From contig MGSF01000009.1 in NCBI GenBank assembly GCA_001798715.1, positions 1-33,672 on the forward strand: a stretch of 33,672 bases of DNA. Direction: 5' to 3'. This document shows, in pieces, positions 7,213-29,477 of the stretch; position 1 is the first letter of the stretch; each line of letters opens with the position of its first letter. The notes under the pieces are model-generated. The model saw nothing but the letters and a program-made list of their open reading frames with translations. It was not told the origin of the DNA and made no database searches. A program made the translations under genes and the position numbers. The stretch is from Deltaproteobacteria bacterium RIFCSPLOWO2_02_FULL_50_16 (GTDB lineage: Bacteria; UBA10199; 2-02-FULL-50-16).

Positions 7213-7569
7213 ATGTCCGATCTCAGCCTTATTATCATTTTTCTGATAATCTCCTTGAGTGTCCTGGCCCTACTCAATGGGTTCTCACGTCGCTTAAGCC
7301 CCCCTCCCGTCGAATCCCCCCCCTTTTCTCCGCATGGAGAGGGTGATTTTACACTCAGTGAGAAGGTCACCCCCTTAAATGATCACCTCATGACCTCCGC
7401 CATCACTGCCTTTATCTTCCTGTCGTTTATCCTCCTCCTGCTCCCCCTGGCCATAATCTTTCATTATAAGGTTGTCGAAGGCTATGGGCTCCAACTCCTT
7501 GTCGTCATGCTCCCCCTCTTCGCATTCATGGGACTCATCTTGCTCTTTATCGGAAAAAAAGGGAAATAA
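7213..7569 (+). CDS. Degenerate NuoA-like membrane subunit (ghost complex I)
   Basis: A 118-residue protein with three predicted membrane helices, in the nuoA position of the first gene set. Aligned with the intact NuoA at 16967, the second and third helices match without gaps, but the acidic pair in FDVEVAFLFPW (D71, E73) is L70 and F72 here, and the loop signature YECGIDP (Cys and Asp near the quinone site) is replaced by a Pro/Ser-rich stretch. These acids belong to the E-channel linking quinone chemistry to the pumps, so that role is probably lost. I chose ATG 7213 over an in-frame TTG at 7192. The identity rests on gene order, length, topology and the second-helix match. Confidence 0.72.
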   Translation: MSDLSLIIIFLIISLSVLALLNGFSRRLSPPPVESPPFSPHGEGDFTLSEKVTPLNDHLMTSAITAFIFLSFILLLLPLAIIFHYKVVEGYGLQLLVVMLPLFAFMGLILLFIGKKGK

Positions 7570-7574
7570 ACTCA

Positions 7575-8063
7575 ATGAGTCACCTCCTTCAAAAATGGCC
7601 TAAAAATTTCATCACAAAAAAATTGGCCCGATGGATACACCAAACTCACAATCGTTTTTTTTCTTGTATCCTTCTAGGAGGATCCACTCACGAAATCAAC
7701 TCATCGTATCTCCGAAAAATAGGGGTTTCCATCACCACAAATCCACGACAGGCCGATATCCTTGTCCTCTCGCTCCCATTAACCGAAAAAATGGGTCGAT
7801 GGTCCAGGATCCTCTATGACCAAATGCCTTTCCCCAAGTACACAATCGGCATTGGAAACAATTCGCAAAAGGGTTTCCCTGAAAAGACCTACTCTTTTTG
7901 TTCCCTGGAGGATGTCGGAATCTCCCTCAACCTTCATGTCCCTGATGCCTTAATGAACACAAAGACCCTGATGATGGCGTTTCAACAACTGCGAAATACC
8001 CTTTCCCAAGATATCACACGGGGTGAAGAAGGAGAAGAAAGTGCAGATAAGACACATTTTTGA
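7575..8063 (+). CDS. NuoB-like subunit lacking all N2 cluster cysteines
   Basis: A 162-residue paralogue of NuoB. The intact copy at 17350 has N2 ligands C37, C38, C103 and C132; by alignment these are G36, S37, N96 and A125 here. The fold markers remain: PRQADILVL for [20 protein letters not shown] for RIYDQMCHPKW, and HVP before the lost PGCPPRPE motif. The two cysteines present (31, 109) are not at ligand positions. No cluster N2 can form by the known scheme, so electrons could not reach quinone through it. The frame is intact, with a downstream overlap onto the NuoC-like gene, which argues against decay. It most likely sits at the cytoplasmic membrane interface as a structural subunit. 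Confidence 0.82.
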
Positions 8064-8502
8064 GCACCTTCAGAAGGATTTGTCCTCCGTATTTTTTGAA
8101 TTGCACGAAGACAGTCCTTCCCATGGAGGGGATCCCTTTATCCTTGTTCCGGCAATGAGTCTTCTGCCTGTGTGCGACATTCTTAAAGACATGCAGAGAT
8201 ATGATTTTCAGTGTTTGAGCAACCTGACGGCTGTGGATTTTCAGGATCATTTGAGACTTATCTATCATCTATTTTCCTATACCCATCATCACAGCCTCAC
8301 ACTCACAACGTCGCTATTGCCGCCTCATTACGAGATTGACTCTGTTTCGCGGCTTTGGCCCATTGCCAACTGGTTTGAGCGAGAAGTCTTTGACATGTTT
8401 GGCATACAATTTCGGGGGCATCCCTCTCTCAAGCGTCTCCTGCTACCCCAGCATTGGACAGGATATCCTCTAAGGAAAGACTATGAACGAATGGCTAGGT
8501 GA
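8041..8502 (+). CDS. NuoC-like subunit (ghost complex I)
   Basis: A 153-residue homologue of NuoC (30-kDa subunit), a structural part of the peripheral arm next to NuoB and NuoD. The signature is well kept: [24 protein letters not shown] and then HPSLKRLLL and YPLRKDYE, matching the NuoC domain of the CD fusion at 18708. It is the least altered peripheral subunit of this set. GTG 8041 is preferred because AAGGAG precedes it by six bases; an in-frame GTG at 8023 would add six lysine-rich residues. It overlaps the NuoB-like gene at its start and the NuoD-like gene at its end. The C-D interface appears to be under selection even though catalysis is not. Confidence 0.88.
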
Positions 8503-9589
8503 AGAAAAAAAAGTATGTATTGGTCCTCATCATCCCGTGACCCGGGGGGGAATGAATTTTATTGCCTCCTTGGACGGGGAGACCCTTCGTCAAGCCATTC
8601 CTGAAATAGGATATTGTCACCGTTCCCTGGAAAAAATAGCCGAAAATACCGATTATCAAGGCTTCACAACTTATGCCTCCCAAGCCGATCCCCTCTCTCC
8701 GTACAGCTGCCAATGGAGTTATGTCATGGCCGTTGAAAAGTTAGCAGAAATCACAGTTCCTCGACGGGCCGAGTTTCTTCGCGTCATCGCTATGGAATTA
8801 AACCGCATCACTTCACACCTGCATTTTCTCAGCTTTATGGCTGAAATCATAGGGGCGAAAATTTTAAAGGCCCAGTCCTTCAAGAGGGCCGAAATATTTT
8901 CTCATTACACAACCACCTTTTGTGGTAACGATAATATGTTTTTGCAGATAGGGGGGGTGGTTCGCGACCTGTGTTCCTCGGACTGGGAAACGACCCTTAT
9001 ACAATTTTTAGACCATTTAAAAACCTTTATCGATGAATACTCCTATACGTTGAAAAATAATTATGTCTTTCAGCGACAATTGTCCTTTACAGGGGTCATC
9101 TCCGTTGAAGAAGCGATTCAATACAATCTTGTCGGACCCAATCTTCGAGCCTCTGGACTCGCGTGGGATCTCAGAAAAAACCGGCCCTATTCAATTTACT
9201 CAGAATTGAATCTTGAAATCCCCACGTGTCAGAGAAATAAAGGAGATGCCCATGATCGCGTACAAGTGAGGATTGATGAAATTGCCCAATCGGCCTCCCT
9301 TATCCGGCAATGTCTTGAAAAAATACCTCAGGGTCCCATTCAATGCAAAATCACAGAACCCATAAAACCCAAAACAGGTGAAATCTACAACTGTATCGAG
9401 GGCGTCCGCGGTGACACAGGAACTTATCTTGTCAGTAATGGAACCACTCAACCTCACCGATTAAAATTAAGAACAGGTTCGTTTTCGAGCCTTGCTCTTC
9501 TGGAAAAAATGGGGCGAGAAATCCCCCTCTCTGATTATCTTACTTTGATCGCAAGTCTTGACATCTCCCCTTGGGAGGCGGATCGATAA
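8483..9589 (+). CDS. NuoD-like subunit with altered quinone site (ghost complex I)
   Basis: A 368-residue homologue of NuoD (49-kDa subunit), which in complex I closes the quinone pocket with NuoB. The fold signature is clear: [41 protein letters not shown] and IGGVVRDL. Aligned with the NuoD domain at 18708, the quinone-binding His (H199 there) is R21, the Tyr (Y248) is P70 and the Asp (D300) is I122. These match the residues called His38, Tyr87 and Asp139 in Thermus. Quinone reduction by the standard mechanism looks impossible. C and D are separate genes here, unlike the fused CD downstream. The stop TAA overlaps the next ATG (TAATG). Confidence 0.88.
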
Positions 9590-10773
9590 TGGAAGTATTA
9601 TCCTCTTTTTTCTTAAACAACATCAGTCCTATGGTTTCCATTGGGGCTCAATTAACCTTTATTTTCATCCTCATTTTTGTCATCTTCTTTCCACTCATCA
9701 CCCTGACCTATTGGATCGAACAAGTTATTTATTCTCGTTTCTCAGGAATTCGCGGTGCAGGTCACAGTCTTTACAACATCATTTTCCCCATGAAAATAAT
9801 CACCAAGCTTCTTCAAAAAGAATCTCAAACAGATCCCTACATCGATCGGCCCCTCTTTTGCCTTGCTCCTTATGTTGGTTTTTCAACGGTAGTTTTGACT
9901 TTAATCGTCCTCCCTTTTTCAAGCCACTATGTCTTATCCCATTCTGATTTAGGGGTTCTCTATCTCATCACATTTATATTTCTCATGGGGATCCATGCCC
10001 TCATGGCGGGATGGAGCTCCAATTCCAAATGGGCCCTCATAGGAGCTGTTCGTTCGTTGACCCAATCCCTCTGCGGCATCACTCTCTACGGTCTCGTGAT
10101 AATGATCATCACCCTACAAACCCATTCGCTCTCTATTCAGGACATCATCCAAATGCAGGGGCCCCATCCCTGGCAATGGCTCCTCTTTCTCAGTCCCTTT
10201 ACATTAGCGGCCTTTTTGCTTTCACTCTCCTCCCTCATGATGATCATCGACCAACCCCCTTATGGAACCGCCACATCCTCTTCAGAAATCCATTCGGGAT
10301 ATAAAGGCCATTATACGGGTATTCGTTATTTTGTCCTTACCATCAGTAACAAAGGAGCCTTCTTCATCTTAAGTGCCATGACAACACATCTTTTTTTGGG
10401 GGGCTGGCAAGCGCCAGCCTCCTGGCTGTATTGGGCCGCCGTCTTTTCACCCCAATTTCCCAATATTATTGAAATGGGGGTTTTTTTATTTAAAACCTTA
10501 TGCGTTGTATGGATAATACTCATCCTACAAAACACCCTTCCTCCCCTACGACTGGATCATTTGATAAAACTGACCTGGAAATATCTTATACCTCTTGGTT
10601 TGACAGCATTGGCCGGCACCGCCATTTGGACCTATATTTTCCCTGATGGAAATCTTTTTACTCAGTACTTATTATCTTTACTATTGGTCACCTTTGGAAT
10701 TTATTTTTTCTATCGTCTCCTGTATCATACCTACCTCTCCATCAAACCTAGAATCAAAGGAAAAAAGGCATGA
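9589..10773 (+). CDS. NuoH-like membrane subunit with lost loop motifs (ghost complex I)
   Basis: A 394-residue integral membrane protein with about eight helices, equivalent to NuoH, which joins the membrane arm to the quinone cavity. Conserved landmarks include KIITKLLQKE, LMAGWSSNSKWALIGAVRSL and the LGGW motif. The intact NuoH motif ETNRTPFDLPEGESEIVAG is replaced by DQPPYGTATSSSEIHSG, which removes most of the acids at the mouth of the E-channel, and the ERRGPN motif of the first loop is absent. The ATG at 9589 shares bases with the NuoD-like stop, and GGGAGG at 9574-9579 is a good Shine-Dalgarno sequence. The stop overlaps the following 49-codon gene (ATGA). Confidence 0.85.
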   Translation: MEVLSSFFLNNISPMVSIGAQLTFIFILIFVIFFPLITLTYWIEQVIYSRFSGIRGAGHSLYNIIFPMKIITKLLQKESQTDPYIDRPLFCLAPYVGFSTVVLTLIVLPFSSHYVLSHSDLGVLYLITFIFLMGIHALMAGWSSNSKWALIGAVRSLTQSLCGITLYGLVIMIITLQTHSLSIQDIIQMQGPHPWQWLLFLSPFTLAAFLLSLSSLMMIIDQPPYGTATSSSEIHSGYKGHYTGIRYFVLTISNKGAFFILSAMTTHLFLGGWQAPASWLYWAAVFSPQFPNIIEMGVFLFKTLCVVWIILILQNTLPPLRLDHLIKLTWKYLIPLGLTALAGTAIWTYIFPDGNLFTQYLLSLLLVTFGIYFFYRLLYHTYLSIKPRIKGKKA

Positions 10774-10919
10774 AAAAATATCTCTTTACCCTTATCAAAA
10801 CCTTCGTCATAACACTTGAGGAGCTTTCCATCACTGGTTCCTACTGGATAGTGACTCGCCGCCTTGATCGCCTTTTTTATGCCCCTCAGAAACAAAAGCT
10901 GAATGAGGGAAAATCATGA
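10770..10919 (+). CDS. 49-residue peptide in the nuoI position, no ferredoxin domain
   Basis: A short frame exactly between the H- and J-like genes, overlapping both by ATGA junctions, so translation is almost certainly coupled. The peptide starts MKKYLFTLIKTFVITLEEL, resembling the N-terminal membrane-surface helix of NuoI, and continues with an aromatic-basic stretch (YWIVTRRLDRLFYAP). It has no cysteine, whereas NuoI carries two CxxCxxCxxxCP ferredoxin motifs for clusters N6a and N6b. I infer a NuoI reduced to its anchoring helix, but similarity over so short a span is weak and position is the main evidence. Translation into a tight operon slot argues against chance. Confidence 0.55.
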   Translation: MKKYLFTLIKTFVITLEELSITGSYWIVTRRLDRLFYAPQKQKLNEGKS

Positions 10920-11413
10920 CTCCTTCTATTATCACTTTTTGCCTCCTTACATTGTTCGTCATCGGTTCAGGTCTGATTGTGGCCTTTACTAAAAACATTC
11001 TTCATTCCGTATTTGGCCTGCTCGGTGTTGCCATTTCTATGACTGGATATTTTTTGCTTCTGTCGGCGCCGTGGACGGCCTTGATTTTTATTCTTATTTA
11101 TACGGCACTCACATTTGTTGTTTTTCTCTTTGTAATTTTACTGACTCGGCGAAAGGAAATTATCGCGACCCTTTCTATATCCCATATTGGATATGGTCTT
11201 GTCCTTTCGGGTCTGTTGATTGTCTTTATGTCCTTAAGCCTCCTTCAACTTCCCGGTGTAACAGAAATTCGCGTCGTTGCTCCAGAAATGCCCCTTTTAA
11301 ACCTAGGAAAATCCATGGTGTCCCCTCATTTTATCGTTATTGAGCTCTTCTCTTTGACCCTTGTCATTCTTTTTGTCGGCCTCGTCACTCTCATACGCCG
11401 TGAGGTAAAATAA
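10916..11413 (+). CDS. NuoJ-like membrane subunit (ghost complex I)
   Basis: A 165-residue protein with five predicted helices, in the place and with the length of NuoJ. The family core LIYTALTFVVFLFVILL aligns with [17 protein letters not shown] of the intact copy at 25119: the Tyr is kept, but the Gly after it, part of the helix-3 region whose bulge switches during turnover, is Ala and the neighbours are bulkier. The end, IELFSLTLVILFVGLV, matches the usual [16 protein letters not shown]. Start ATG 10916 overlaps the stop of the 49-residue peptide, and the K-like gene follows after one base. Confidence 0.82.
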   Translation: MTPSIITFCLLTLFVIGSGLIVAFTKNILHSVFGLLGVAISMTGYFLLLSAPWTALIFILIYTALTFVVFLFVILLTRRKEIIATLSISHIGYGLVLSGLLIVFMSLSLLQLPGVTEIRVVAPEMPLLNLGKSMVSPHFIVIELFSLTLVILFVGLVTLIRREVK

Positions 11414-11414
11414 G

Positions 11415-11732
11415 ATGATGCCTCTTTATCCTTTTCTGGTTGTCGCCTCTATTTTGTTGGCATTAGGACTTTTTGTCGTTGTCACACGACGCCATCTTAT
11501 TGCCATCCTCATCGGAATAGAACTCATTCTATGTTCTGCCAGTTTAAATTTGGTTGCCTTCAATCAATTGCTTCATGGAAATTCCACTAGCATTTTAGAG
11601 GGTCACGCCTTCATGGTTTTGATTATTTTACTAACAAGCGCCCGGGTTTCGGTCGCCCTTTCTCTTTGTTTCCTAGTATTTCGTAATTTTAACTCGGCGG
11701 ATGCTCAACATATAATGACCCTTAAAGGATAA
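11415..11732 (+). CDS. NuoK-like subunit with Glu72-to-Arg change (ghost complex I)
   Basis: A 105-residue protein with three helices, homologous to NuoK (MrpC-like). The first key acid is kept (E36 in GIELIL), but the second is not: [10 protein letters not shown] in the intact NuoK (E72) reads TSARVSVALS here, putting R77 in the middle of a membrane helix. In complex I both Glu residues carry protons between the quinone end and the antiporter-like subunits. The loop before this helix is five residues longer, and the C-terminal MTLKG resembles the usual SLMKG. A second ATG follows directly (11418). A positive charge here should block ordinary proton relay. Confidence 0.88.
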   Translation: MMPLYPFLVVASILLALGLFVVVTRRHLIAILIGIELILCSASLNLVAFNQLLHGNSTSILEGHAFMVLIILLTSARVSVALSLCFLVFRNFNSADAQHIMTLKG

Positions 11733-11737
11733 AGGAC

Positions 11738-13825
11738 ATGTTGCTGCCCTTATTAGAAAACATATCTATCGTTATATGGTGGGTTCCTTTTCTTCCTTTG
11801 TTGGCGGCATTTGTCAATGCGCTCATCATCATGTTCTCCCGATCAACCTACCAACCCTGGGCCCATAGAATATCCATTTCTTTTCTCACCTTGTCTTTCT
11901 TCATTACCTTATGTGCTTTTTTTTACATCCAGGGGTTGCCCCCCGACGAACAAGAAAGAATTATCACCTTCTCTTCTTGGCTGTCCCTCCCCTTTCTCTC
12001 TGTGGACTGGGCCTTTTTAATCGATTCCTTCTCCCTTATTTTAATGCTTCTGATTACAGGATTCTCCTGTCTCATTCTCATCTATTCCATCGAGACGATG
12101 AGGCACGATCCTCGTTATGTTCGTTTCTTTTTCATAACAAATCTTACCATAAGCTTTCTCCTGATCACTGTGATGGCCGACAATCTCCTTTTGACTTTTT
12201 TGGGTTGGGAAGGTTTGGCGCTCTGCTCCTTTTTTCTCATTGGTCACTGGCACGGAGAATCCTTTCGGATGGAAAAGGGAAGGCATTATTTTATTATTCA
12301 TCGCATCAGTGACATAGGATTCATCTTGGGGATTCTGGGAATCTTCATTTTTCTCAAAGACCGTGGTTCTCCCACCCTTGATTTTGTCCTCATCCACGAC
12401 CAAATGGCCTCCATAGCCCATACTCTCAGGGGCACGATTCCCCTCTTATCACTTGTAGGCCTCTTTTTTCTCTCTTCCACACTCTTAAAGGTCGGACAGA
12501 TCCCATTTTTTGTCGGACTGTATCATCCCCATCATGCCCCTTTTCCAGCAACCATTCTCATCCAAATCATGGCCTCCTTAATCACAACCAGCTATCTGAT
12601 TCTCCGGCTTCACTTTGTCTTCTCCCACCTGGTGATCCTTCTAAAGATCTTGATCGTGATTGGACTTTTGACGGCCTTTTTGGCGGCCCTCATAAGCCTG
12701 GCCCACAACGATCTTGTCAAAATACTCTCCCTACTCAACATCAGCCAAGCGGGTTTCATTGTTACAAGCCTTGGCCTCTCGGCTTATTGGATCGCCTCTC
12801 TTCATCTGATCTTTCAAGTCATTTTCATGACGGGACTTTTTCTGGGATCGGGTGTGATTCTACATGTCATGAACGGAGAACATGACATTTGTCAAATGGG
12901 TGGGCTAAAAAAATATGTGCCCCATCTTTATTGGCCCTTTCTCCTCTGTCTTTTAGCGCTTATCGGCCTTTTTCCGTTTTCTGGATTTTTTTCACAGAGT
13001 CTGATTTTTTACGAGACATTTGAAAAGGCATTTCCCCTCTGGTTTATCGGGTTGTTGGCCCTTTTCCTTACCTCACTCTCCGCCTCTCGGCTCTTAACAT
13101 TTGTTTTTCTTGGAAAACCCCAAACCAAATCCAATGAAATGCATCTGAGCTATCTCAGCTCTCTTCCCCTTTCCCTAATGATTCCCTTCTTTATTTCTTC
13201 AATTTTGGCTGTCGGCATCGGCATGATTGGCCTTCCCCAAGCCCTGGGATCTCTGGCGGGATGGTATGATCCCCCTTTTATTCAACAATGGCTGGCTCCC
13301 GTCTTTGAATCACCCCTGACTCAAATTCATGAAGGTCCTGCTCCATCTTTTAAAATTCTCGGTCTCTCCGCCGTTTCTCTGGTCATGATCCTGTCAGGTT
13401 GTTGCGTGGGATATTTTTGGTTTCAGAGATTTCAAAAGGGATTGCCTTTGCAATTCCCGGGACAACAGAGAATCACAAAAATCTTAAATCGGGAATTATA
13501 TCTTGAAACCATTTATCACATCATGATCGTCATCCCATTATTAGGACTCAAAAATGCCATCTTTTTTATTGATCGAGTTGTCATAAACCTCATTATTCAT
13601 TTTCTGGTCCAAACATTTCAGGGAATCGCCCGCCTGTGCCGCTTTTGTGATCTGCGTCTCATTGATGGAAGCCTTCGTGGTTTTTCCCGCCTTATTCTTT
13701 TGAGTGGGCAAAAAATACAGCTTTTACAAAACGGAAGTATTCAGAATTATTCTGCCATTATTTTTGCAGGAACTTTATTTTTAATTTTCGGAGGGGTGCT
13801 GTACTATCTCCTAACAGTCTATTGA
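11738..13825 (+). CDS. NuoL-like antiporter subunit with lost distal charged residues (ghost complex I)
   Basis: A 695-residue membrane protein with the NuoL fold, including the long C-terminal lateral helix region. Retained: E158 in FLGWEGLALCS, the Asp in RISDIGF, and K251 in LLKVGQIP. Lost, by alignment with the intact copy at 25926: the His of SALIHAATMV (Q276), the His and Lys of THAFFKACLFL (Q360 and M364), and the Lys of FFSKDEI (Q420). The first half-channel therefore looks intact while the middle and exit half are disabled. AAAGGA precedes the ATG. No frameshift or internal stop is seen over 695 codons. The next gene follows only after a palindromic repeat. Confidence 0.92.
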   Translation: MLLPLLENISIVIWWVPFLPLLAAFVNALIIMFSRSTYQPWAHRISISFLTLSFFITLCAFFYIQGLPPDEQERIITFSSWLSLPFLSVDWAFLIDSFSLILMLLITGFSCLILIYSIETMRHDPRYVRFFFITNLTISFLLITVMADNLLLTFLGWEGLALCSFFLIGHWHGESFRMEKGRHYFIIHRISDIGFILGILGIFIFLKDRGSPTLDFVLIHDQMASIAHTLRGTIPLLSLVGLFFLSSTLLKVGQIPFFVGLYHPHHAPFPATILIQIMASLITTSYLILRLHFVFSHLVILLKILIVIGLLTAFLAALISLAHNDLVKILSLLNISQAGFIVTSLGLSAYWIASLHLIFQVIFMTGLFLGSGVILHVMNGEHDICQMGGLKKYVPHLYWPFLLCLLALIGLFPFSGFFSQSLIFYETFEKAFPLWFIGLLALFLTSLSASRLLTFVFLGKPQTKSNEMHLSYLSSLPLSLMIPFFISSILAVGIGMIGLPQALGSLAGWYDPPFIQQWLAPVFESPLTQIHEGPAPSFKILGLSAVSLVMILSGCCVGYFWFQRFQKGLPLQFPGQQRITKILNRELYLETIYHIMIVIPLLGLKNAIFFIDRVVINLIIHFLVQTFQGIARLCRFCDLRLIDGSLRGFSRLILLSGQKIQLLQNGSIQNYSAIIFAGTLFLIFGGVLYYLLTVY

Positions 13826-13842
13826 CAAACCATGTTTTCCAA

Positions 13843-13963
13843 GGCTGTTGAGAAAGGTCTAGATACGAGGCGGGCGGCTGAAGGCGCGACGCAGGCGTAC
13901 TTGATTGTACGTCGAGGAGCGACCGAAGCCGCCAACGAAGTAGATAGGCCTTTGTCAACAGCC
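13843..13963. repeat. 121-bp imperfect palindromic dispersed-type repeat
   Basis: The arms run GGCTGTTGAGAAAGGTCTA from the left and GGCTGTTGACAAAGGCCTA from the right strand, continue with matched GC-rich segments, and meet at a GTAC(ttgatt)GTAC centre. It fills most of the 164-base gap between the NuoL-like and NuoM-like genes. It looks like a REP/MITE-type interspersed element; similar palindromes recur in many proteobacterial genomes, but I cannot count copies here. In RNA it would form one long hairpin that could attenuate or stabilise the operon mRNA. Confidence 0.75.
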
Positions 13964-13989
13964 TTGCTCATGAACTGAAGAGGTGAATC

Positions 13990-15507
13990 ATGAATTTTCC
14001 CTACCTTTCATTTATAACATTCACTCCCCTCATAGGAGCTGTCTTGATCGCGATAACTCCTATTATTCGAGGATACACACAATGGGTCAAGTGGGTCGCA
14101 TTATTCGTCACAACCCTGCCCCTGATGGTGGCTGGAAAACTCTATCTTCTTTTCAATTCCAAAAACTACGCCCTCCAGTTCGTCGAAGGACCATGGGAAT
14201 GGATTCCTGATTACGCGATACAATATTTCATGGGAATTGATGGATTAGCTATGTCTCTTGTCATTCTCACCTCTTTGGTTGGAATCATCGTCATCATTGC
14301 CTCCTGGGATATAAAACAAAATCCAAAAGGATACTTTTCTCTGTTGTTGGTAACACAATCAGGTCTCACAGGGTTTTTTTGTTCCCTAGATTTTTTCCTG
14401 TGTTTTATATTTTTGATCCTGTCTCTCTTTCCACTCTATGGCCTCATCGGTCTTTGGGGCAAACCTCATGGAGAATCCGTCGCCACCAAATCCCTTTTAT
14501 TTCTATTTTCGGGAAGTATCTTACTCCTTCTTGTAATCATCACCCTTTATTCTTTTACTGAACCTCACACCTTCAACATGGTTTCTTTAACCCAGCAAGA
14601 CGTGCACAAATCCCTTCTAGGTGAATCTTGGTTTCGATATCTTTGCTGGCTTGGCCTTTTGAGCAGTAGCGTTATTTTTATTCCTATTGTTCCTTTTCAT
14701 ACATGGTTCGTCGATGCCGTCGAGGAGGCCCCCGCTCCTGTCAGTGTGATTCTTGCTGCTCTCGTAACAAAGGTAGGCCTCTACGGTTTATTACGATTTA
14801 ACGCCCCCATCTTCCCCGATGCCACCGGCCATTTTGCCTGGTTATTGGCCTTCATGGGAATCCTCAATATCCTTTATAGTACCTTTTGTGCCATGGCACA
14901 AAAAAACCTCAAACGCCTTTTCGCCTATCTCTCCATGGCCTCAATAGGTTTTTGTTTATTGGGAATTGCCACTTTTACGGCTGAAGGAATGACAGGAGCC
15001 GTTTTTCACATCTTGAACCATACCATCGTCTTTACCCTTGTCTTCTTGATAGTGGGAGCCTTGTTCCATCGGGCCCACCAACTTGAAATCCAAAGCTTCG
15101 GAGGATTGGGATCTCTCATCCCCCGCTATGCCCTACTGGCCTCCTTGTCCTTTTTTGCCGTTATGGGATTGCCGGGACTTTCTCCCTTTATCAGCGAAGT
15201 CACCGTTCTTCTTGGCGCTTTTCAAACATGGCGCCTCTTCTCAATCACTTCGTTACTGGGGATGGTTTTTATAGCCGCCGCCCTACTACGGGCCTATCAA
15301 CAAATCTTTTTTGGAAAAACCAATGACCTTTGCCGCGGGTGGCCTGATATTTCTCAAGGAGAAATGATGACCCTATGTCCCTTGCTTCTTATTGTCATTC
15401 TTTGCGGTATCTATCCACAACTTGGAATAGACGTCATCCAAACAACAATATTAAACCTTAACCAAGCCATGCTACCTTTTGTCTCCTATTCATTCATGAA
15501 CTTTTAA
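13990..15507 (+). CDS. NuoM-like antiporter subunit with lost Glu and Lys (ghost complex I)
   Basis: A 505-residue, roughly 14-helix homologue of NuoM. Family landmarks are present: VPFHTWFVDAVEEAPAPVS, the K261 position in VTKVGLYG, LKRLFAYLSM, an ILNHTI His and a conserved Glu in PFISEVTVLLG. Two central residues are gone: the Glu of FWEVMLIPMY (E144 class) is I143 in FLILSLFPLY, and the Lys of AIKVPLFPFHTW (K234 class) is F230. That pair drives proton loading in each antiporter unit, so this unit should not pump normally. AGAGGTG lies seven bases before the ATG, which suggests efficient initiation after the palindrome. The intact counterpart is at 27903. Confidence 0.92.
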   Translation: MNFPYLSFITFTPLIGAVLIAITPIIRGYTQWVKWVALFVTTLPLMVAGKLYLLFNSKNYALQFVEGPWEWIPDYAIQYFMGIDGLAMSLVILTSLVGIIVIIASWDIKQNPKGYFSLLLVTQSGLTGFFCSLDFFLCFIFLILSLFPLYGLIGLWGKPHGESVATKSLLFLFSGSILLLLVIITLYSFTEPHTFNMVSLTQQDVHKSLLGESWFRYLCWLGLLSSSVIFIPIVPFHTWFVDAVEEAPAPVSVILAALVTKVGLYGLLRFNAPIFPDATGHFAWLLAFMGILNILYSTFCAMAQKNLKRLFAYLSMASIGFCLLGIATFTAEGMTGAVFHILNHTIVFTLVFLIVGALFHRAHQLEIQSFGGLGSLIPRYALLASLSFFAVMGLPGLSPFISEVTVLLGAFQTWRLFSITSLLGMVFIAAALLRAYQQIFFGKTNDLCRGWPDISQGEMMTLCPLLLIVILCGIYPQLGIDVIQTTILNLNQAMLPFVSYSFMNF

Positions 15508-15517
15508 ATTGCAACCT

Positions 15518-16945
15518 ATGGCATTTCTAAACGAATTTATCACTTATCTTCCTGAAACCGTTCTTGCCGGAACCTCCGTCTTGCTCATCGTACTCATCAC
15601 CCTCCTGCCCCCTCGAGAGAAAAGTAAACGCGAACCTTTTTCTTATATCGCCCTCCTGGGTCTTATGGGATCGGCCTTTCCCTTACTGGCAGGTCTGGTT
15701 CCGCAACAGGACAACATGAGTATTTTTTTTAAAATCTTCTTTTTGGCTGCGACTTTTTTTGTCGTCCTCTTCTCTCAACACTCAAGGGAGTTGTTCAAAA
15801 CCGATACCGGCACCTATTACCTCCTCCTTATTGGATCCTCACTCGCCCTCCTTATTATTGCCTCAGCAACACATTTTTTAATCCTGTATCTTGCCTTAGA
15901 AATGCTCAGTTTGATGACCTATCTCCTGGTAGGATCCTTAAAAGGCACCCCCCGCTCCTCTGAAGCGGCCATAAAGTACCTCATCTACGGTGGGACGACG
16001 ACGGGGATCATGCTGTATGGCATGACCTTATTTTACGGAATCAGCGGCAGTCTCGCCTTGAATCAAATCGCCGAGATCATGAACCGTCAGACCTCGCTAC
16101 CTATCCTATTTTATGTGGCCCTCTTGATGACCCTGGTCGGCATCGGTTTCAAACTGACCATGGTCCCTTTTCACATGTGGGCCCCGGATACCTATGAGGG
16201 GGCTCCCACTCCTATTGCGGCCTTTTTGGCCCTGATTTCCAAGGCCGCAGGGCTGGTTTTTCTTCTTCGTCTATCCCTTGCCTTGGGAATGATCCCCGAA
16301 GTCGGTGCCCCATTTCTTTCCCCCCTCATTGCCGTGTTGGCCATTGCTACCATGACCGTGGGGAATCTTGGCCTTTTAAGACAAAACAGCATAAAGCGCC
16401 TCCTGGCCTACTCCAGCATGACGCATTTGGGCTACATCCTCATGGGAGGGGTCTCCCTTGAGCCCTCCAACCTCAAAGGCATCTTTTTTTACCTGATCAT
16501 TGAGGCCGTCCTCCACCTGGGCCTCTTCCTCATCATCATCCTATTGAACCATCAAGAAACTCATGAAACCCTCAGTGATTTTCAAGGACTGGCCTTTCGA
16601 GGACGTGTGGGGGCCCTTATGGCCGGGGTCCTCACCCTCTTTGTTATCGGTCTTGCCGGCCTCCCTCCCACCTCGGGTTTTGTCAGTCGATTCCACCTCT
16701 TTGAAACGGCCATCCGATCACAGTGGTTTGGTCTTGCCCTCATCGGGGGAGCCAACAGCCTCCTCTCCCTCTGGGGTTATACAAAGATGATAAAAATCAT
16801 CTATTTTAAAACCAGCCAGAAAATGGCGCCCTTACGTCCTCCAGGATTACGCGATGCATCAATCCTCTTGACCTTCTGCATCGTAACTGTTTATTTAGGC
16901 CTGCAATGGGCCCCCTTGATCCAATGGCTGGATCGGGTCGACTAG
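15518..16945 (+). CDS. nuoN: NuoN, first copy, largely intact
   Basis: A 475-residue antiporter-like subunit of complex I with 14 or so helices. Unlike its neighbours upstream it keeps the key residues: E128 in LYLALEMLSLMTYL, the Lys of LVGIGFKLTMVPFH, the WAPDTYEGAPTP loop and the Lys of LISKAAGLVF. The last-channel residue is Arg (FVSRFHLF), where the second NuoN at 29478 has Lys (FIGKFYLF). By order it closes the ghost set, yet it directly precedes the intact nuoA, so it could serve either complex. ATG 15518 is preferred to a TTG at 15509; only ten bases separate it from the NuoM-like stop. Confidence 0.9.
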   Translation: MAFLNEFITYLPETVLAGTSVLLIVLITLLPPREKSKREPFSYIALLGLMGSAFPLLAGLVPQQDNMSIFFKIFFLAATFFVVLFSQHSRELFKTDTGTYYLLLIGSSLALLIIASATHFLILYLALEMLSLMTYLLVGSLKGTPRSSEAAIKYLIYGGTTTGIMLYGMTLFYGISGSLALNQIAEIMNRQTSLPILFYVALLMTLVGIGFKLTMVPFHMWAPDTYEGAPTPIAAFLALISKAAGLVFLLRLSLALGMIPEVGAPFLSPLIAVLAIATMTVGNLGLLRQNSIKRLLAYSSMTHLGYILMGGVSLEPSNLKGIFFYLIIEAVLHLGLFLIIILLNHQETHETLSDFQGLAFRGRVGALMAGVLTLFVIGLAGLPPTSGFVSRFHLFETAIRSQWFGLALIGGANSLLSLWGYTKMIKIIYFKTSQKMAPLRPPGLRDASILLTFCIVTVYLGLQWAPLIQWLDRVD

Positions 16946-16966
16946 TGGTGTGTGATAGAACTCTGC

Positions 16967-17338
16967 ATGAACAATCCCTATTTAGCTATTTTCTGCCTCT
17001 TTCTCTTTGCCCTCCTCTTGGGGGTGGGTTTTGTCATCATTTCTCATTTTATAGGCCAAAAAAGACCCTCAACGGCCAAGATGATGCCCTATGAATGCGG
17101 GATCGATCCCCTCGGAGCCCCCCGTGCAGAATTTTCCGTAAAATTTTTTCTGGTCGCCATGATCTTTATCGTTTTTGATGTTGAGGTAGCCTTCCTCTTT
17201 CCGTGGGCCGTCCTCTTTAAAGGCTTTATGAAAGCGGGGCTGGGGGGTTTTGTCTTTGCTGAGATGATGATTTTTATGGGAATCTTGTTGATGGGTCTGA
17301 TCTATGTTTATGGCAAAAAAGCCCTGAAATGGGAATAG
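16967..17338 (+). CDS. nuoA: NADH-quinone oxidoreductase subunit A
   Basis: A 123-residue, three-helix subunit next to NuoH, J and K. The quinone-side loop motif YECGIDPLG (43-50) and the acidic helix FDVEVAFLFPW (D71, E73) are both present, so it is fully typical. A GTG at 16952 would add five residues; the ATG at 16967 gives a better family N-terminus. Neither has a strong Shine-Dalgarno sequence, so it may depend on coupling to the preceding nuoN, 21 bases upstream. This is the first gene of the catalytically complete set. Confidence 0.95.
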   Translation: MNNPYLAIFCLFLFALLLGVGFVIISHFIGQKRPSTAKMMPYECGIDPLGAPRAEFSVKFFLVAMIFIVFDVEVAFLFPWAVLFKGFMKAGLGGFVFAEMMIFMGILLMGLIYVYGKKALKWE

Positions 17339-17349
17339 GAGAACCTTCA

Positions 17350-17826
17350 ATGGGTTTGGACAATTTACTGGCCGGCAATGCCATCACCCTAAAACTAAAA
17401 GAGGCTGTTGCCTGGGCCCGTAAATATTCCCTGTGGCCCATGCCTTATGGCACGGCTTGTTGTGCCATTGAATTTATGGGAGTGGTGGCCCCTTATTTTG
17501 ACATCTCCCGATTTGGGGCCGAGTTGGTTCGATTTTCCCCAAGACAATCCGATCTCCTCATGGTGATGGGGACCATCAACTATAAACAAGCCCCTATTCT
17601 AAAAAGGATCTATGACCAGATGTGCCATCCCAAGTGGGTCATCGCCATGGGGGCCTGTGCCACATCTGGAGGATTTTATAATAATTACAGTGTCTTACAA
17701 GGTATCGACGAGATCGTCCCCGTAGATGTCTACATTCCAGGATGTCCGCCACGTCCGGAAGGTATCTTAAATGCCCTCGTCAAACTCCAAGAAAAGATCA
17801 CTCAAGAAGCCCGAAAGGATGTCTAA
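17350..17826 (+). CDS. nuoB: NADH-quinone oxidoreductase subunit B (N2 cluster)
   Basis: A 158-residue subunit holding the [4Fe-4S] cluster N2, which passes electrons to quinone. All ligands are present: C37 and C38 in GTACCAIEF, C103 in MGACATSG and C132 in PGCPPRPE. The YDQM-HPKWVIAMG block and VPVDVYIPGCPP are standard. AGGAG at 17336-17340 stands the right distance before ATG 17350; an in-frame ATG at 17329 inside nuoA would add seven residues and is less likely. It is the reference against which the cysteine-free copy at 7575 was aligned. Confidence 0.96.
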   Translation: MGLDNLLAGNAITLKLKEAVAWARKYSLWPMPYGTACCAIEFMGVVAPYFDISRFGAELVRFSPRQSDLLMVMGTINYKQAPILKRIYDQMCHPKWVIAMGACATSGGFYNNYSVLQGIDEIVPVDVYIPGCPPRPEGILNALVKLQEKITQEARKDV

Positions 17827-17833
17827 AAAATCC

Positions 17834-17847
17834 GGGGGGAGGCCCCC
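17834..17847. other. Short GC hairpin after nuoB
   Basis: GGGGG(gagg)CCCCC stands between the nuoB stop and the secreted repeat-protein gene, with no T-tract after it. It may weakly stabilise or attenuate the mRNA at this junction but is not a standard intrinsic terminator. Confidence 0.3.
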
Positions 17848-17870
17848 TCAAATCAAAAACTGATCAAAAA

Positions 17871-18686
17871 ATGAAGACCCAAAAAAACATAATGCTCCTT
17901 TTTATCCTCATGTCATTTTTGATGATGGGCAAAAATGGGCAGGCCGGGAACCCCATCAAAGAGGGCGATCAACTCCTAGAAGAGGGGCACTTATTACAGG
18001 CGGCCGACACTTATTATCAAGCCTATCTTCAAGATCCCACCCATAAAAAAGCCGATTTACTCCTTTTTAAGACAGGAATCGTCCTTGACCTTGCGGCCCC
18101 CAAACTTTACGAAGACGCCGATCGCAAATGCTATCTGGATAAAAAGACAGAAGAGGCCAATCCTCAATGTTTTGATGATTATGCTCGCCGTTTGAACAAT
18201 CGTTATGGAGACAATGCGTTTTTTTACTGGGCCGATCGTATCGTGATCCAATATGCGGGAAGTCATTTTCAAAAGATCCTGGATGATTTTCCAAAAAGCC
18301 CCCTTTATGCCGATGCCGTCTTCAAGATGTTTCGTGGAAAGAGTCTCATGCAGGGCAATCCTGAAGAGATTACCGATCGCGTCCAACAATGGATTGACAA
18401 CAACAGCAAAAGCAAAATCCTCCCTGAGGCCTGGTTATTACTGGGACGCCTCTATGCCGATTCATGGTGGGTGTATGCCCGTCATACCTTTGTCGCCAGG
18501 GGAGGTGTGGCGCAGATTGGTGGAATTCCTGAAAATGCCGAAATCAGCAAGGGTAAGGGACTGGCCGCCTTTCGGAAGGTCTTTGAAAAATATCCCGACT
18601 CGGCAGAGGCCCCGGTTGCAAAAAAAGAGTTTCAACTGCTAAAAAACAATAAAAATGACGGCTTTATGTATGGGATTTCGTATTGA
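17871..18686 (+). CDS. Secreted TPR-like protein inserted in the nuo operon
   Basis: A 271-residue protein with an N-terminal signal peptide (MKTQKNIMLLFILMSFLMMG, then a likely cut after QAG); no lipobox cysteine. The mature part is helical with repeat-like pairs: EGDQLLEEGHLLQAADTYYQ, DPTHKKADLLLFKTG, HFQKILDDFPKSPLYADAVF and AFRKVFEKYPDSAEAPVAKK, the last two fitting the outer-membrane-lipoprotein/YbgF class of TPR. It is not a known complex I subunit, yet lies between nuoB and nuoCD in the same direction. A periplasmic assembly, stability or supercomplex factor is possible; a chance passenger is the alternative. A longer in-frame extension upstream overlaps nuoB in another frame and is rejected. 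Confidence 0.75.
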   Translation: MKTQKNIMLLFILMSFLMMGKNGQAGNPIKEGDQLLEEGHLLQAADTYYQAYLQDPTHKKADLLLFKTGIVLDLAAPKLYEDADRKCYLDKKTEEANPQCFDDYARRLNNRYGDNAFFYWADRIVIQYAGSHFQKILDDFPKSPLYADAVFKMFRGKSLMQGNPEEITDRVQQWIDNNSKSKILPEAWLLLGRLYADSWWVYARHTFVARGGVAQIGGIPENAEISKGKGLAAFRKVFEKYPDSAEAPVAKKEFQLLKNNKNDGFMYGISY

Positions 18687-18707
18687 GACCCATTGGGATT
18701 TGAACTA

Positions 18708-20420
18708 ATGAATATGCCTCATAACAACATTACCAAAACCCTCATTGAAAAATTTCCTGCCGATGTCATCGAGAGTCATGAGGCCTACGGCGACACAACT
18801 GTCATTGTGAAAAAAGGGCGCATCACTGACATCCTTCGCTTTCTAAAAGAAGAGATCCAACCCTCTTTTGAAATGTTAATCGATCTCTGCGGTGTGGATT
18901 ATCTTCAATGGAAAGATTCGGCTCGTTTTGAAGTGGTTTACCACCTCCTCTCCCTCAAGACCCACGACAGGGTTCGGGTGCGAGCCCCATTGAGTGAAGA
19001 AGACCCCACCATCGATTCAGTGAGCCCGTTATGGAAGGCCGCTGATTGGTATGAACGGGAAGTGTTTGACATGTTTGGCATTATTTTCCATCGTCATCCC
19101 AATCTAAAACGTATTTTGATGTTTGAAGGTTTTGAAGGCCATCCCCTGAGAAAGGATTACCCTGCTGAAAAAAGACAACAAATCCCCACCGCAGAGATCG
19201 ATCTGCTCCATCTGTCCCTTCAAAATCGGCATTTTTCCGAGACCGATCACCTGCCCACAAGGTCCATGATCCTCAATATCGGACCTTCACATCCCGCCAT
19301 GCACGGCGCCCTTCGCTATCAGGTGGAGCTCGATGGTGAAACGATTCACCGGGCTGTGGCTGAAATCGGTTACCTCCATCGGGCCTTTGAAAAACATTCG
19401 GAATCCAGCACCTACACCCAGGTCATTCCTTACACCGACCGCCTCAACTACCTTTCCTCCATGATGAACAATGTGGGCTTTGCCCATGCTGTTGAAAAAA
19501 TCCTGGGCGTAGAGATCCCTCCTCGCGCCAAAATGATTCGTGTTATTGTATGTGAACTCTCCCGCATCATGGATCATTTAGTCTGTCTGGCCGCCGCCTT
19601 TGTCGACCTGGGAGCCCTGACCAATTTCTGGTACTTCTTTGATGCCCGGGAAAAAATTTATGACTGCACGGAAAAACTGGCCGGGGCACGTCTGACCACC
19701 AATTATACACGCATCGGCGGCGTCTGGAGGGACATTTCTCCCGACATCATCACAGGAATCCACAAGGCCTTCAAAGTTTTGGACAAGGCCATTCTGGACG
19801 TCTCTCGCCTTTTAGAGCGCAACCGCATTTTTATTGACCGCACACGGAACGTGGGCATCATCTCCAAGGAAGATGCCGTAAGCTACGGTTATACAGGACC
19901 CTGCCTGAGGGCCTGCGGTGTCCCCTATGACATTCGCAAGGATCAGCCCTACTACGATTATGATCGCTTTGATTTTGATGTCCCCGTTGGCTCGAGGGGG
20001 GATGTCAATGATCGCCTGATGGTTCGCTTTGAAGAGATGCGACAAAGTGCCAAGATCATCCAACAAGCCCTGACTCGTCTCCCCCCCGGCCCGATTATGA
20101 TTGAAGATCCAAAAATCGCACTACCGGCCAAATCAAATGTGTATGGGAGTATTGAGGGCCTGATGAATCACTTCATGATTGTCACCCAGGGCATCTGTCC
20201 TCCCAAGGGTGAGGTTTACTCCGCCACTGAAGCGGCCAATGGTGAATTGGGATTTTATATCGTCAGTGATGGAGGCCCAAGACCCTACCGCGTGCGGTGC
20301 CGCCCCCCTTGCTTCCCTTTAACAGCGTCCTCTGAAAGACTGGTCGAGGGAGGAATGATCGCCGATCTCATTGCTATTGTTGGCAGTTTAAACATTGTCG
20401 TAGGAGAACTCGATAGGTAA
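18708..20420 (+). CDS. nuoCD: NADH-quinone oxidoreductase fused subunits C/D
   Basis: A 570-residue fusion. Residues 1-150 are NuoC ([38 protein letters not shown]), a linker spans about 151-187, and the rest is NuoD. The quinone-site residues are present: H199 in [10 protein letters not shown]248 in RLNYLSS and D300 in [10 protein letters not shown]. Other NuoD blocks, [21 protein letters not shown] and GSRGDVNDR, are typical. It forms the core of the peripheral arm and reduces quinone with NuoB. ATG 18708 follows the TPR-like gene by 21 bases. Fusion here but separate genes in the ghost set suggests that the two sets do not come from a recent simple duplication. Confidence 0.95.
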
Positions 20421-20424
20421 AATT

Positions 20425-20898
20425 ATGATCTTAAAATTTTCAAAAAACTCAAAAACAAAAATTGATGAAATCTTAGAGAGATATCCCAACAAACAGGCTG
20501 CCACCCTCCCCGTCCTTTTTATCGCCCAAAGGGAATTTGGACACCTCTCAAGGGAGGCCATGGAGGCCGTTGCCAAGATCCTGGAAACCTCCTATGCCCA
20601 TGTCTACGGTGTAGCCACTTTTTACACCCTGTATAACAAAAAACCCGTTGGAAAATATCATGTCCAAATTTGCGGCAACCTAAGCTGCAGTATTATGGGG
20701 GGTGAAAACATACAGGAATACCTTAAAAAGAAACTAAAACTGAATTTCGGCGAGACGACACAGGACGGAAAATTCACATTATCATCGGTTGAGTGTCTGG
20801 CTTCCTGCGGCACGGGACCGGCGATGCAGATTAACGAAGCCTACTATGAAAAATTGACGCCTGAAAAGGTTGACGAAATCCTCAACTCACTAAAATAA
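20425..20898 (+). CDS. nuoE: NADH-quinone oxidoreductase subunit E (24-kDa type)
   Basis: A 157-residue thioredoxin-like [2Fe-2S] protein of the NADH-oxidising module. The N1a ligands are C83 and C88 (QICGNLSCS) and C124 and C128 (VECLASCGTGP). The helical N-terminus (LERYPNKQAATLPVLFIAQ, VAKILE, VYGVATFYTLY) is standard. It follows nuoCD after four bases and is directly followed by nuoF. With F and G it shows that this set, unlike the first, can accept electrons from NADH. Confidence 0.95.
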   Translation: MILKFSKNSKTKIDEILERYPNKQAATLPVLFIAQREFGHLSREAMEAVAKILETSYAHVYGVATFYTLYNKKPVGKYHVQICGNLSCSIMGGENIQEYLKKKLKLNFGETTQDGKFTLSSVECLASCGTGPAMQINEAYYEKLTPEKVDEILNSLK

Positions 20899-22239
20899 AT
20901 GGAAACCATCCTGACCCCAAATTTTAATCTCCCTGATTCCCACACCCTCCCTGTCTATGAAAAGACAGGAGGGTACAAGACCCTTCACAAGCTCTTGAAA
21001 ATGAGGCCTGATGAAGTCATTGAAGAAGTCAAGAAATCGGGTCTCAGGGGGCGTGGGGGGGCCGGGTTTGGTACCGGACTCAAATGGAGCTTTGTCCCTA
21101 AAGATCCTCCGGGACCGCGTTATCTCTGCGTTAATGCCGATGAAGGGGAACCGGGCACATTTAAGGATCGCGCCCTCCTGGAAAAAGATCCCCATCGCCT
21201 GATTGAAGGAAGTGTCATGTGTGCCTACGCCATTGGGGCGGCCGTCGGCTATATCTACATTCGCGGCGAGTTTGACCTCCCCTATCGTCGAATAGAGGCC
21301 GCCCTTCAAGAGGCCTATCAAAAAGGCTATTTGGGCAAAAATATCTTGGGTTCCCCGTTTAGCTTTGATTTATATACCCATCAAGGGGCGGGGGCCTACA
21401 TCTGTGGTGAAGAAACGGCACTGCTCAATTCTATCGAAGGGAAGAGGGGGGAGCCGCGCATCAAGCCCCCCTTCCCGGCCATCTCCGGTCTCTTTGGGGC
21501 CCCGACGGTCATCAACAATGTAGAAACCTTATCGGCCCTACCCTACATCATTGAAAAAGGCGCCGAGGCCTATGCCTCCATAGGCACCCCTAAAAGTACG
21601 GGCACAAAACTTTTTTCTGTCAGCGGCCCTGTCAAGAAGCCGGGGGTTTATGAAGTCCCCTTGGGTTATCCCTTGCGAAAATTTCTTGATGAGTATGCCG
21701 GCGGCCTGATGGAGGGTAAGATCTTGAAGGCCGTCATCCCCGGCGGTTCCTCGGTCCCCGTCCTCACGGCCCAAGAGGTCGAGGAGGTCAATCTCGACTA
21801 TGAATCCCTCCAAGAACACGGTTCGATGCTGGGTTCCGGAGGCATGATCGTCATCCCTGATGATTTCTGCATGGTCCATGCCCTGGAAATTTTGGCCCAT
21901 TTTTATTCCCACGAATCCTGCGGCCAATGTTCCCCCTGCCGGGAGGGGACGGCGTGGATCTACAAGATTTTAAAGCGGTTGGAAAAGGGGCAAGGGACCC
22001 CGGAGGATCTGGACCTGCTGATCGATATCAGCAACGGAATGGCGGGACAGACAATCTGCGTCCTCTCCGACGCCCTGGCCATGCCCGTCAAGAGTTTTTT
22101 GGCAAAATTTAAAAATGAGTTTGAAGAACACATTAGTCTGGGATATTGCCCTCATCGCGCCTCGTTTCGCACCTCCGGTGCCCCAACGTATCTGAGCTCG
22201 GATCAGCTCCTCTGGAGCCCCAGGTTCCAGAGTCTCTGA
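20899..22239 (+). CDS. nuoF: NADH-quinone oxidoreductase subunit F (FMN, N3)
   Basis: A 446-residue NADH-binding flavoprotein. [16 protein letters not shown] (about 49-64) binds FMN/NADH, and [13 protein letters not shown] and [16 protein letters not shown] are characteristic. Cluster N3 ligands are in [13 protein letters not shown] and the later TICVLSD cysteine. The family core ends near [10 protein letters not shown]; the remaining 20 or so residues (from HRASFRTSG) are unlike NuoF, and the last eight codons, with the stop, lie in a palindrome at 22215-22296, so the element appears to have replaced or extended the original C-terminus. The end is remote from the FMN site, so activity is probably unaffected. 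Confidence 0.95.
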
Positions 22240-22296
22240 CTCTGGTCTGCGAAGATGCCGACGCTTCAGAGTCCCGACGCTCTGTCGGCGGGGCTC
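22215..22296. repeat. 82-bp imperfect palindrome at the nuoF/nuoG junction
   Basis: The outer arms are GAGCCCC/GGGGCTC; inside them CAGAG and GACTCTG recur in matching order when the two strands are compared, and there are sub-hairpins such as CCAGAGTC(tct)GACTCTGG and CCGAC/GTCGG. It covers the nuoF stop and most of the gap to nuoG, and looks like a small inserted palindromic element. It could lower nuoG expression relative to nuoF or protect mRNA ends. AAGGAG for nuoG follows at 22303-22308. Confidence 0.55.
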
Positions 22297-22318
22297 GGCG
22301 CTAAGGAGATTAGATAAG

Positions 22319-23857
22319 ATGGTCGAAATCACGGTAGACGGCAAAAAAATCACCGTCCCTCACGGAATCAACCTCATCGAAGCGGCAAGGCTCGCGGGTG
22401 GTTTTATTCCTCACTACTGCTATCACTCAAAACTCTCCGTCGCCGGCAACTGCCGGATGTGTCTGGTAGAAATCGAAAAGGTCCCAAAGCTGCAGGTCGC
22501 TTGTAATACCACCGTACGGGATGGAATGGTCTTTTACACCAACAACGATCGCGTCAAACGGGCCCGTGAACAGGTCTTGGAATTTATCCTCGTCAATCAC
22601 CCCCTTGATTGTCCTGTCTGCGACCAAGCCGGCGAATGCAAGCTCCAAGAATTCTACATGCAATATGACCTCCGGGAAAGCCGTTTTCGGGAGTCAAAGA
22701 GTCATAAACCAAAAGTCGTCGATCTGGGCCCACGTGTTGTTTTAGACATGGAGAGATGTATCCTGTGCACCCGATGCGTCCGCTTTTGCCGAGAGATCGC
22801 CAAGTCCGATGAGCTTTGTGTCTCAGAGCGGGGCAGTCGCAATAAACTGACCACGTATCCCGGAAAGGCACTGGAAAATGCCTATTCGACAAATGTGGTG
22901 GATATCTGTCCTGTCGGGGCCTTGACGAGCAAGGATTTCCGCTTTAAGCGTCGTGTCTGGTTTTTGAAAAAGGAAAAATCAATTTGTCCCGGATGTGCCC
23001 GCGGTTGCAACATTGAAATCCATCACCACGACAACAAAATCTTTCGTCTCGTCCCCAGAACCAATGAAGAGGTCAATCAGTGCTGGATGTGTGATGAAGG
23101 AAGGGATACTTATAAGCCCGTTCTTGCCCAAAACCGGCTGCGCTCCCCAATGGGTTTTGAAGCAGGTCAGCGAACACAATTCTCCTCTACAGAAATCATG
23201 CCCCGCATTCAAAATGCCCTTTCCGGCATCGCCGGTATCGATGGCAAATCAATCGTCGGTATCGGTTCGGCCCAGGCCACCAACGAAGACAATTATGCCC
23301 TGAAAAAATTTCTTGAAATCACCTTCAAATCCAAAAACTTGCTTTATCATAAAAATGAGTCCGACCATCCGACTCATGATAATTTTCTTATTTGTGCTGA
23401 CAAAAATCCCAATACCAATGGTATTGAAGCCCTTGATTTTGTAAAAATAAACACTAACAAAAAATTTCAGGCCTTTTTTATTTTAGGCAACCTCCCTGAA
23501 GAGGCCATCAAAAAAATAGCCTTGGAGAAAAAACGTGTTGTCATTATGCTGGCCACCCATGATGACGAAGATTCGAAGTGGCCGGATTTTGTGATTCCAA
23601 CAACCACTTTTGCCGAATCCACGGGAACTTTTATGAACATACAAAGGCGGGTTCAGAAAATATCTCCGGCCCTTATCTCCCCGGGAGAATCTCGATCGGC
23701 GTGGGAATTTTTCTCGGATCTCAGCACTTATTTTGGAAAAGAAAATCCGATTTATCACAGTGCGGAGGCCGTTTTTCAGGACATTGTCGAGGAACACTTG
23801 TGCTATCAGGGCTTGACCTACAAATCACTGGGAGAGACAGGAAAGGTGTGTCCCTAA
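22319..23857 (+). CDS. nuoG: NADH-quinone oxidoreductase subunit G, short form
   Basis: A 512-residue Fe-S subunit linking the NADH module to the rest of the arm. The [2Fe-2S] ligands are C34, C45, C48 and C62; the His-ligated cluster N5 uses H94, C98, C101 and C107; the next [4Fe-4S] site has C147, C150, C153 and C197. A CPGCARGC motif (C223, C226, C230) with CWMC at 255-258 can hold the extra N7 cluster. The molybdopterin-like C-terminal domain is reduced to about 250 residues, whereas E. coli NuoG is about 900 long. ATG 22319 has AAGGAG ten bases upstream. nuoH follows without a gap. Confidence 0.94.
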   Translation: MVEITVDGKKITVPHGINLIEAARLAGGFIPHYCYHSKLSVAGNCRMCLVEIEKVPKLQVACNTTVRDGMVFYTNNDRVKRAREQVLEFILVNHPLDCPVCDQAGECKLQEFYMQYDLRESRFRESKSHKPKVVDLGPRVVLDMERCILCTRCVRFCREIAKSDELCVSERGSRNKLTTYPGKALENAYSTNVVDICPVGALTSKDFRFKRRVWFLKKEKSICPGCARGCNIEIHHHDNKIFRLVPRTNEEVNQCWMCDEGRDTYKPVLAQNRLRSPMGFEAGQRTQFSSTEIMPRIQNALSGIAGIDGKSIVGIGSAQATNEDNYALKKFLEITFKSKNLLYHKNESDHPTHDNFLICADKNPNTNGIEALDFVKINTNKKFQAFFILGNLPEEAIKKIALEKKRVVIMLATHDDEDSKWPDFVIPTTTFAESTGTFMNIQRRVQKISPALISPGESRSAWEFFSDLSTYFGKENPIYHSAEAVFQDIVEEHLCYQGLTYKSLGETGKVCP

Positions 23858-25625: not shown

Positions 25626-25924
25626 TCCTACTCGAGCATTACCTTATTGTCGCCTCGCTGCTCTTTTGTCTGGGACTCTTGGGGGTCCTCTTTCGACGTA
25701 ACGCCCTGATTGTTTTCATGTCCATCGAATTGATGCTCAATGCGGGCAATCTTGTTTTTGTGGCTTTTTCCCGTTTTTTTGGACGTATGGATGGTCAAGT
25801 TTTAGCCTTTTTTATTATCGCCTTAGCGGCGGCTGAGGTCTCGGTGGGTTTGGCCATCATTGTCGTCATGTTCCGAAAACGAGGAACGATTGATATAAAC
25901 GAAGCAAGCCTGATGAAGGGATAA
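25622..25924 (+). CDS. nuoK: NADH-quinone oxidoreductase subunit K
   Basis: A 100-residue, three-helix, MrpC-like subunit. Both essential membrane acids are present: E36 in SIELML and E72 in [10 protein letters not shown]. The length is exactly typical. It starts within the nuoJ stop codon and ends one base before the GTG of nuoL. E72 aligns with an Arg in the K-like copy at 11415. Confidence 0.95.
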
Positions 25925-25925
25925 C

Positions 25926-27899: not shown

Positions 27900-27902
27900 T
27901 TT

Positions 27903-29420: not shown

Positions 29421-29424
29421 TGAC

Positions 29425-29464: not shown

Positions 29465-29477
29465 AGAATTTGGACTG

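Follow-up and report, generated by a model that had tools for sequence, protein, structure and literature searches.

Gene organization of the locus

The window analyzed here (33,672 bp) is the entire contig C9 of a 1.73-Mb genome, which is assembled in 90 contigs and 92% complete. Positions 7213 to 16945 hold an operon of eleven plus-strand genes in the order A-B-C-D-H-I-J-K-L-M-N (gA to gN; hereafter the upstream operon), directly upstream of an NADH-type nuo operon. The first four genes encode a NuoA-like protein of 118 amino acids (gA, 7213–7569), a NuoB-like protein of 162 amino acids (gB, 7575–8063), NuoC (gC, 159 amino acids, 8023–8502) and NuoD (gD, 368 amino acids, 8483–9589). They are followed by NuoH (gH, 394 amino acids, 9589–10773), a putative NuoI remnant of only 49 amino acids (gI, 10770–10919), NuoJ (gJ, 165 amino acids, 10916–11413) and NuoK (gK, 105 amino acids, 11415–11732). 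The series ends with NuoL (gL, 695 amino acids, 11738–13825), NuoM (gM, 505 amino acids, 13990–15507) and NuoN (gN, approximately 475 amino acids, 15518–16945), the last with an inferred start at the ATG at 15518. Pfam or NCBIfam recognize gC, gD, gH, gJ, gK, gL, and gM.

A first-pass annotation of this DNA had described ten intact frames, gA to gM, in canonical order. All ten were found unbroken in that order, and the set continues with gN, which had been omitted. It had also reported the absence of NuoE, NuoF, and NuoG, the subunits that would mark an NADH-type complex I; they are indeed missing, as is normal for the 11-subunit type of the relatives described below. Tight coupling of the junctions, likewise proposed, holds where translational overlaps occur (gD/gH, gH/gI, and gI/gJ, the latter two of 4 bp), and breaks down between gL and gM, which are 164 bp apart. 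This spacing contains a dispersed repeat (13834–13985, plus strand) inserted between the two genes. The repeat is about 130–150 bp long, has some ten further copies in the genome (73–90% identical) and, judged by eye, looks palindromic.

Identification of the weakly recognized subunits

The match of gB to known families is weak (0.069 for Pfam; 8e-14 for the NCBIfam NuoB model, far under the cut-off). Its predicted structure (mean pLDDT 79) gives TM scores of approximately 0.67–0.72 against solved NuoB chains, a prediction that was built on an alignment of genuine NuoB sequences and leans towards the NuoB fold. Judging from its sequence and the model, gB is a NuoB.

For gA, recognition came from profile comparison only (hhalign E 4e-6 against the NuoA profile of the relatives), and a fold search with its model gave no match. 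The topology is NuoA-like, with three predicted transmembrane (TM) helices, and the gene was assigned from its position, its topology and the hhalign result. Neither Pfam nor hhalign found a match for gI. This short protein is similar in its first half to the N-terminal helix of the relatives' NuoI, and in its last part to the C-terminal tail (p about 0.03 each, weak singly). Taking this weak similarity of the ends together with its position and overlaps, we assigned gI to NuoI; it looks as if the ferredoxin domain had been excised in frame.

Loss of redox, quinone and proton-path residues

For each subunit, missing residues were judged in alignments that included the canonical copy and the corresponding proteins of class members. 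The first-pass annotation had called the operon redox-silent, and every residue test agrees: the N2 cysteines, the ferredoxin domain of NuoI and the quinone His, Tyr, and Asp are all missing. In gB none of the four N2 cysteines remains (the CC pair is TH, the others are N96 and A125), and all aligned small-type relatives have four of four. The protein does contain two cysteines, at positions 31 and 108, and next to the former site there is a His. That the ligands might be displaced but present, a possibility raised beforehand, was rejected since both residual cysteines fall outside the ligand columns of the alignment. The two-cluster ferredoxin domain is absent from gI, and with it both [4Fe-4S] sites of NuoI. 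In gD the quinone His21 is replaced by R and Tyr70 by P, and Asp122, conserved in the aligned relatives, by I. The quinone-chamber loop 5/6 of gH and the acids of its E-channel are lost, most of its acidic residues being gone. Within the limits of what sequence can show, both electron transfer and quinone reduction are ruled out. An intact small-complex NuoB elsewhere in the genome was considered as well and rejected, only the canonical copy on C9 and one on contig C86 being found in this 92% complete genome.

For the proton path, alignment columns were matched to what we take to be the path residues of E. coli and Thermus. The loss that had been proposed for A, H, K, L, and M is borne out for A and H, and is partial in the other three. 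None of the 11 conserved charged, Tyr or Cys columns is kept in gA, where the YECG loop and the acidic residues are lost. Glu36 is retained in gK, with Glu77 changed to R. The TM5 Glu and TM7 Lys are retained in gL (E158 and K251), which loses the other path residues; in gM they are replaced by I143 and F230, and K261 and E403 are retained. The path residues of gN are intact (E125, K209, and K239), as are 18 of its 20 conserved ionizable or Tyr columns. Conserved columns are also largely kept in gC and gD. Given the path residues lost from gM, gL, gK, and gA, a pump-like membrane arm is unlikely.

Relatives and origin of the operon

The comparison set comprised 46 genomes of the class, the present one included, with one other genome of the same order (G001). 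Approximately 18 of the 46 carry a small-type NuoD that is 42–46% identical to gD, and at the readable loci it is accompanied by same-type A, B, C, H, I, J, K, L, M, and N. Wherever the NuoB of these relatives was read its cysteines are all present, and NuoB and NuoI are intact there. A scan of genome contigs with gD alone gave no match; with an alignment, the best match was the same-order genome G001 (45%). In phylogenetic trees gD groups with G001 (support 0.914) and the ingroups of B, H, K, L, and M are monophyletic, and the placement of A, C, J, and N was not resolved.

The description of the operon as paralogous was not borne out. It is an orthologue, a derived and redox-dead form of the 11-subunit complex I-like operon that is common in the class. 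Nor did the statement that it fits no truncated complex hold as it was put, the relatives being of the 11-subunit type, with NuoB and NuoI intact. The starting point would have been a vertically inherited 11-subunit complex I-like enzyme, whose electron-transfer and quinone chemistry would then have disappeared entirely in this lineage.

Neither the 46 genomes of the class nor the best 80 GTDB loci yielded a second copy without the cysteines, and the present copy, known from one assembly only, appears to be lineage-specific. Occurrence in a single assembly had been named in advance as speaking against a real complex. It weakens the generality of the case, and leaves the local evidence for selection unweakened.

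Consistent placement of homologs beside a full nuo operon had been named as support for a real complex. Such placement is seen in six relatives (G006, G010, G011, G017, G023, and G027), where the NADH operon lies just downstream of the 11-subunit operon as in the window, but not in G029, where the two are approximately 0.5 Mb apart. Class relatives (L038–L053) have two complex I operons, often in tandem, one of the 11-subunit type and one of the NADH type without nuoI in the operon.

Constraint versus decay

The 3192 codons of the upstream operon contain no stop, and each of its approximately 25 specific indels is in frame. Under neutrality about 64 stops would be expected at the smallest excess branch (0.4 per site), a figure obtained by arithmetic with a stop-to-nonsynonymous opportunity of about 0.05. 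With a fixed topology, the depth of the operon's branch is 8.6 (saturated) for A, 3.65 for B, 3.57 for J, 2.93 for L and 2.62 for H, and it falls to 1.60 for N, 1.34 for M, 1.33 for D, 1.24 for C and 0.97 for K, compared with median depths of 0.23–0.93 per subunit in the relatives; these rates and those from FastTree disagree for C, J, and N, and in both the value for B greatly exceeds those for C, D, K, M, and N. Acceleration is only about 2-fold in gN, and gC is among the least accelerated subunits.

Constraint per column was measured as agreement with the alignment columns of the relatives. Invariant columns are kept over variable ones in N (p = 3e-11), D (2e-10), M (6e-10), L (2e-7), and H (6e-7); the effect is weak in A, C, J, and K, and for B it does not reach significance. 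Overall, constraint is uneven: strong in C, K, N, D, and M, intermediate in H, L, and J, and weak in A and B.

Base composition has shifted as well. In A to M, GC3 is 0.47 and first-position G 0.23, the canonical operon having 0.57 and 0.32; gN is closer to normal (0.60 and 0.26, respectively). As both operons are alike in these two measures in the relatives L048 and L051, the lowered values point to relaxed or weak selection. Total GC content of A to M (7213–15507) is 0.44, against 0.49–0.52 in the neighboring sequence. Together, the uneven retention, the shift in composition and the inserted repeat suggest that constraint is real but reduced, and expression of the operon is perhaps low.

Slow decay would make the operon a useless, drifting enzyme that has by chance escaped stops and frameshifts so far. 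The loss of all redox residues, the lowered GC3 and first-position G, the repeat and the restriction to a single genome are what it would lead one to expect. If B were neutral, however, about 3 excess substitutions per site should be seen everywhere, whereas C, K, D, M, and N show 0.4–1.0; moreover, there are no stops, indels are in frame only, and conserved columns are retained non-randomly. Neither the stops or frameshifts of a pseudogene nor an equal, unconstrained rate in all genes is found. Taking the fast change in B as a measure of the time elapsed after redox loss, one would conclude that C, D, K, M, and N have remained under constraint throughout; should B instead have evolved above the neutral rate, a function would be implied by that alone. 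Simple decay does not appear to fit an operon under such partial constraint, and we consider it unlikely. In this respect the first-pass annotation, which took the genes to be intact and not decayed, is upheld by the lack of stops, the in-frame indels and the dependence of constraint on subunit and site.

Comparison with known systems

The 11-subunit complex I-like enzyme is a known kind, described for example in Desulfitobacterium hafniense (PMC11238625). The upstream operon resembles this enzyme (PMC11238625) in its A-B-C-D-H-I-J-K-L-M-N set and order without E, F, and G, and in sequence it is orthologous to the 11-subunit copies found in its class, but it lacks the N2 cysteines, the NuoI ferredoxin domain and the quinone His and Tyr, and its paths in A, H, L, and M are broken. 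With the 14-subunit NADH-type complex I of Escherichia coli and Thermus it shares homologous subunits, including the predicted NuoB fold of gB; unlike that complex it has no NADH module, and its redox and quinone sites are lost.

Ehr complexes, which are hydrogenase-related and without NiFe ligands (PMC6349859), are likewise complex I relatives minus catalytic metal ligands, but they are suspected of redox activity via their Fe-S subunits (PMC6349859), whereas here the ligands of both NuoB and NuoI are lost. The small subunit of Ehr keeps its Fe-S ligands, and gB does not. Mrp cation/proton antiporters are without B, C, D, H, and I, and have small subunits of their own. As redox-free relatives of L, M/N, and K, they offer a further parallel (PMC9568556); in contrast to them, gM has lost the conserved Glu and Lys and the operon has B, C, D, and H. 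No match to MrpE, MrpF or MrpG was found in the operon. Searches of open-access papers on complex I brought up no redox-silent form of it. We regard the operon as a redox-silent form of the known 11-subunit complex, seen in one genome.

Proposed function

The reading we prefer, at about even chances, is that selection has recruited an entire complex I assembly to a function without electron transfer, for example gated proton conduction via gN or control of the neighboring NADH complex. Its subunits would still come together as a membrane arm, with B-C-D forming the cap. The remaining activity would be redox-independent, with gated proton or cation/proton conduction most likely, although we are less certain of this step. 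The one complete proton path would be supplied by gN, and the dead B-C-D-H-I cap may act as a plug or docking site, possibly with the adjacent NADH complex. The part still under constraint comprises a scaffold (C, D, K, and M) and a channel subunit (N). We prefer a redox-free conduit through gN because antiporter-like modules, when isolated, conduct protons with no redox chemistry involved (PMC11496545).

Next after the conduit we rank a structural or regulatory role, in which the silent complex would assemble and bind or buffer the neighboring NADH complex without transport of its own. It would agree with the superoperon shared with the NADH complex, here and in the six relatives named above, and with the largely kept conserved columns of gC and gD. 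The distance between the operons in G029, however, indicates that pairing is not obligatory for the intact forms, and the intact path of gN would be left unexplained; we give this alternative a low probability.

The frames might also be kept open for reasons of polarity, the operon being a translated leader of the NADH operon in which nonsense and frameshift mutations are counter-selected and missense mutations are free. Although its place immediately upstream of nuo (6 bp from N to A), its gene overlaps and its extensive missense change are compatible with such a role, the strong differences between subunits and the retention of conserved columns are not predicted by it, and losing the entire block would be the simpler course, so that we find it quite improbable. 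Residual redox chemistry via other ligands or a relocated cluster, for which cysteines 31 and 108 of gB and the His by the old site could be invoked, is very improbable, since these cysteines lie outside the ligand columns and both NuoI clusters and the quinone His and Tyr are gone too.

For long-range coupling of redox chemistry to proton pumping, complex I is the textbook example. A natural copy deprived of its redox and quinone sites and of most charges used in coupling, with the scaffold and one channel subunit still under constraint, would reveal what the scaffold is capable of by itself and which residues serve coupling only. If the assembly was indeed recruited to work without electron transfer, it would be a pseudoenzyme formed by a whole eleven-subunit respiratory machine, a rare case among large multi-subunit complexes. 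If it is decaying instead, it would still be valuable for tracing the sequence in which constraint on complex I is lost.

Other complex I genes in the genome

The adjacent NADH-type nuo operon (16952–30959, plus strand; A-B-TPR-CD-E-F-G-H-J-K-L-M-N) encodes normal cysteines and has no nuoI between H and J (25119–25126). The canonical NuoI is found on contig C24 (6705–7034; L167 2149–2715, minus strand), in partly masked sequence. Dependence of the canonical complex on the NuoI of the upstream operon was rejected because of this separate gene, which is likewise separate in the relatives.

A third complex I relative on contig C86 (L058 12171–19448, minus strand) is of the Ehr/hydrogenase-4 type and has a ferredoxin-NuoB fusion. 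The fusion adjoins a NuoCD-like large subunit, in which no NiFe cysteine pairs were seen. Within the canonical operon, a TPR-like gene (17742–18686, plus strand) is located between nuoB and nuoCD. Absent from L048 and L051, a similar TPR-like gene follows nuoB in G006 (L050 19200–19501).
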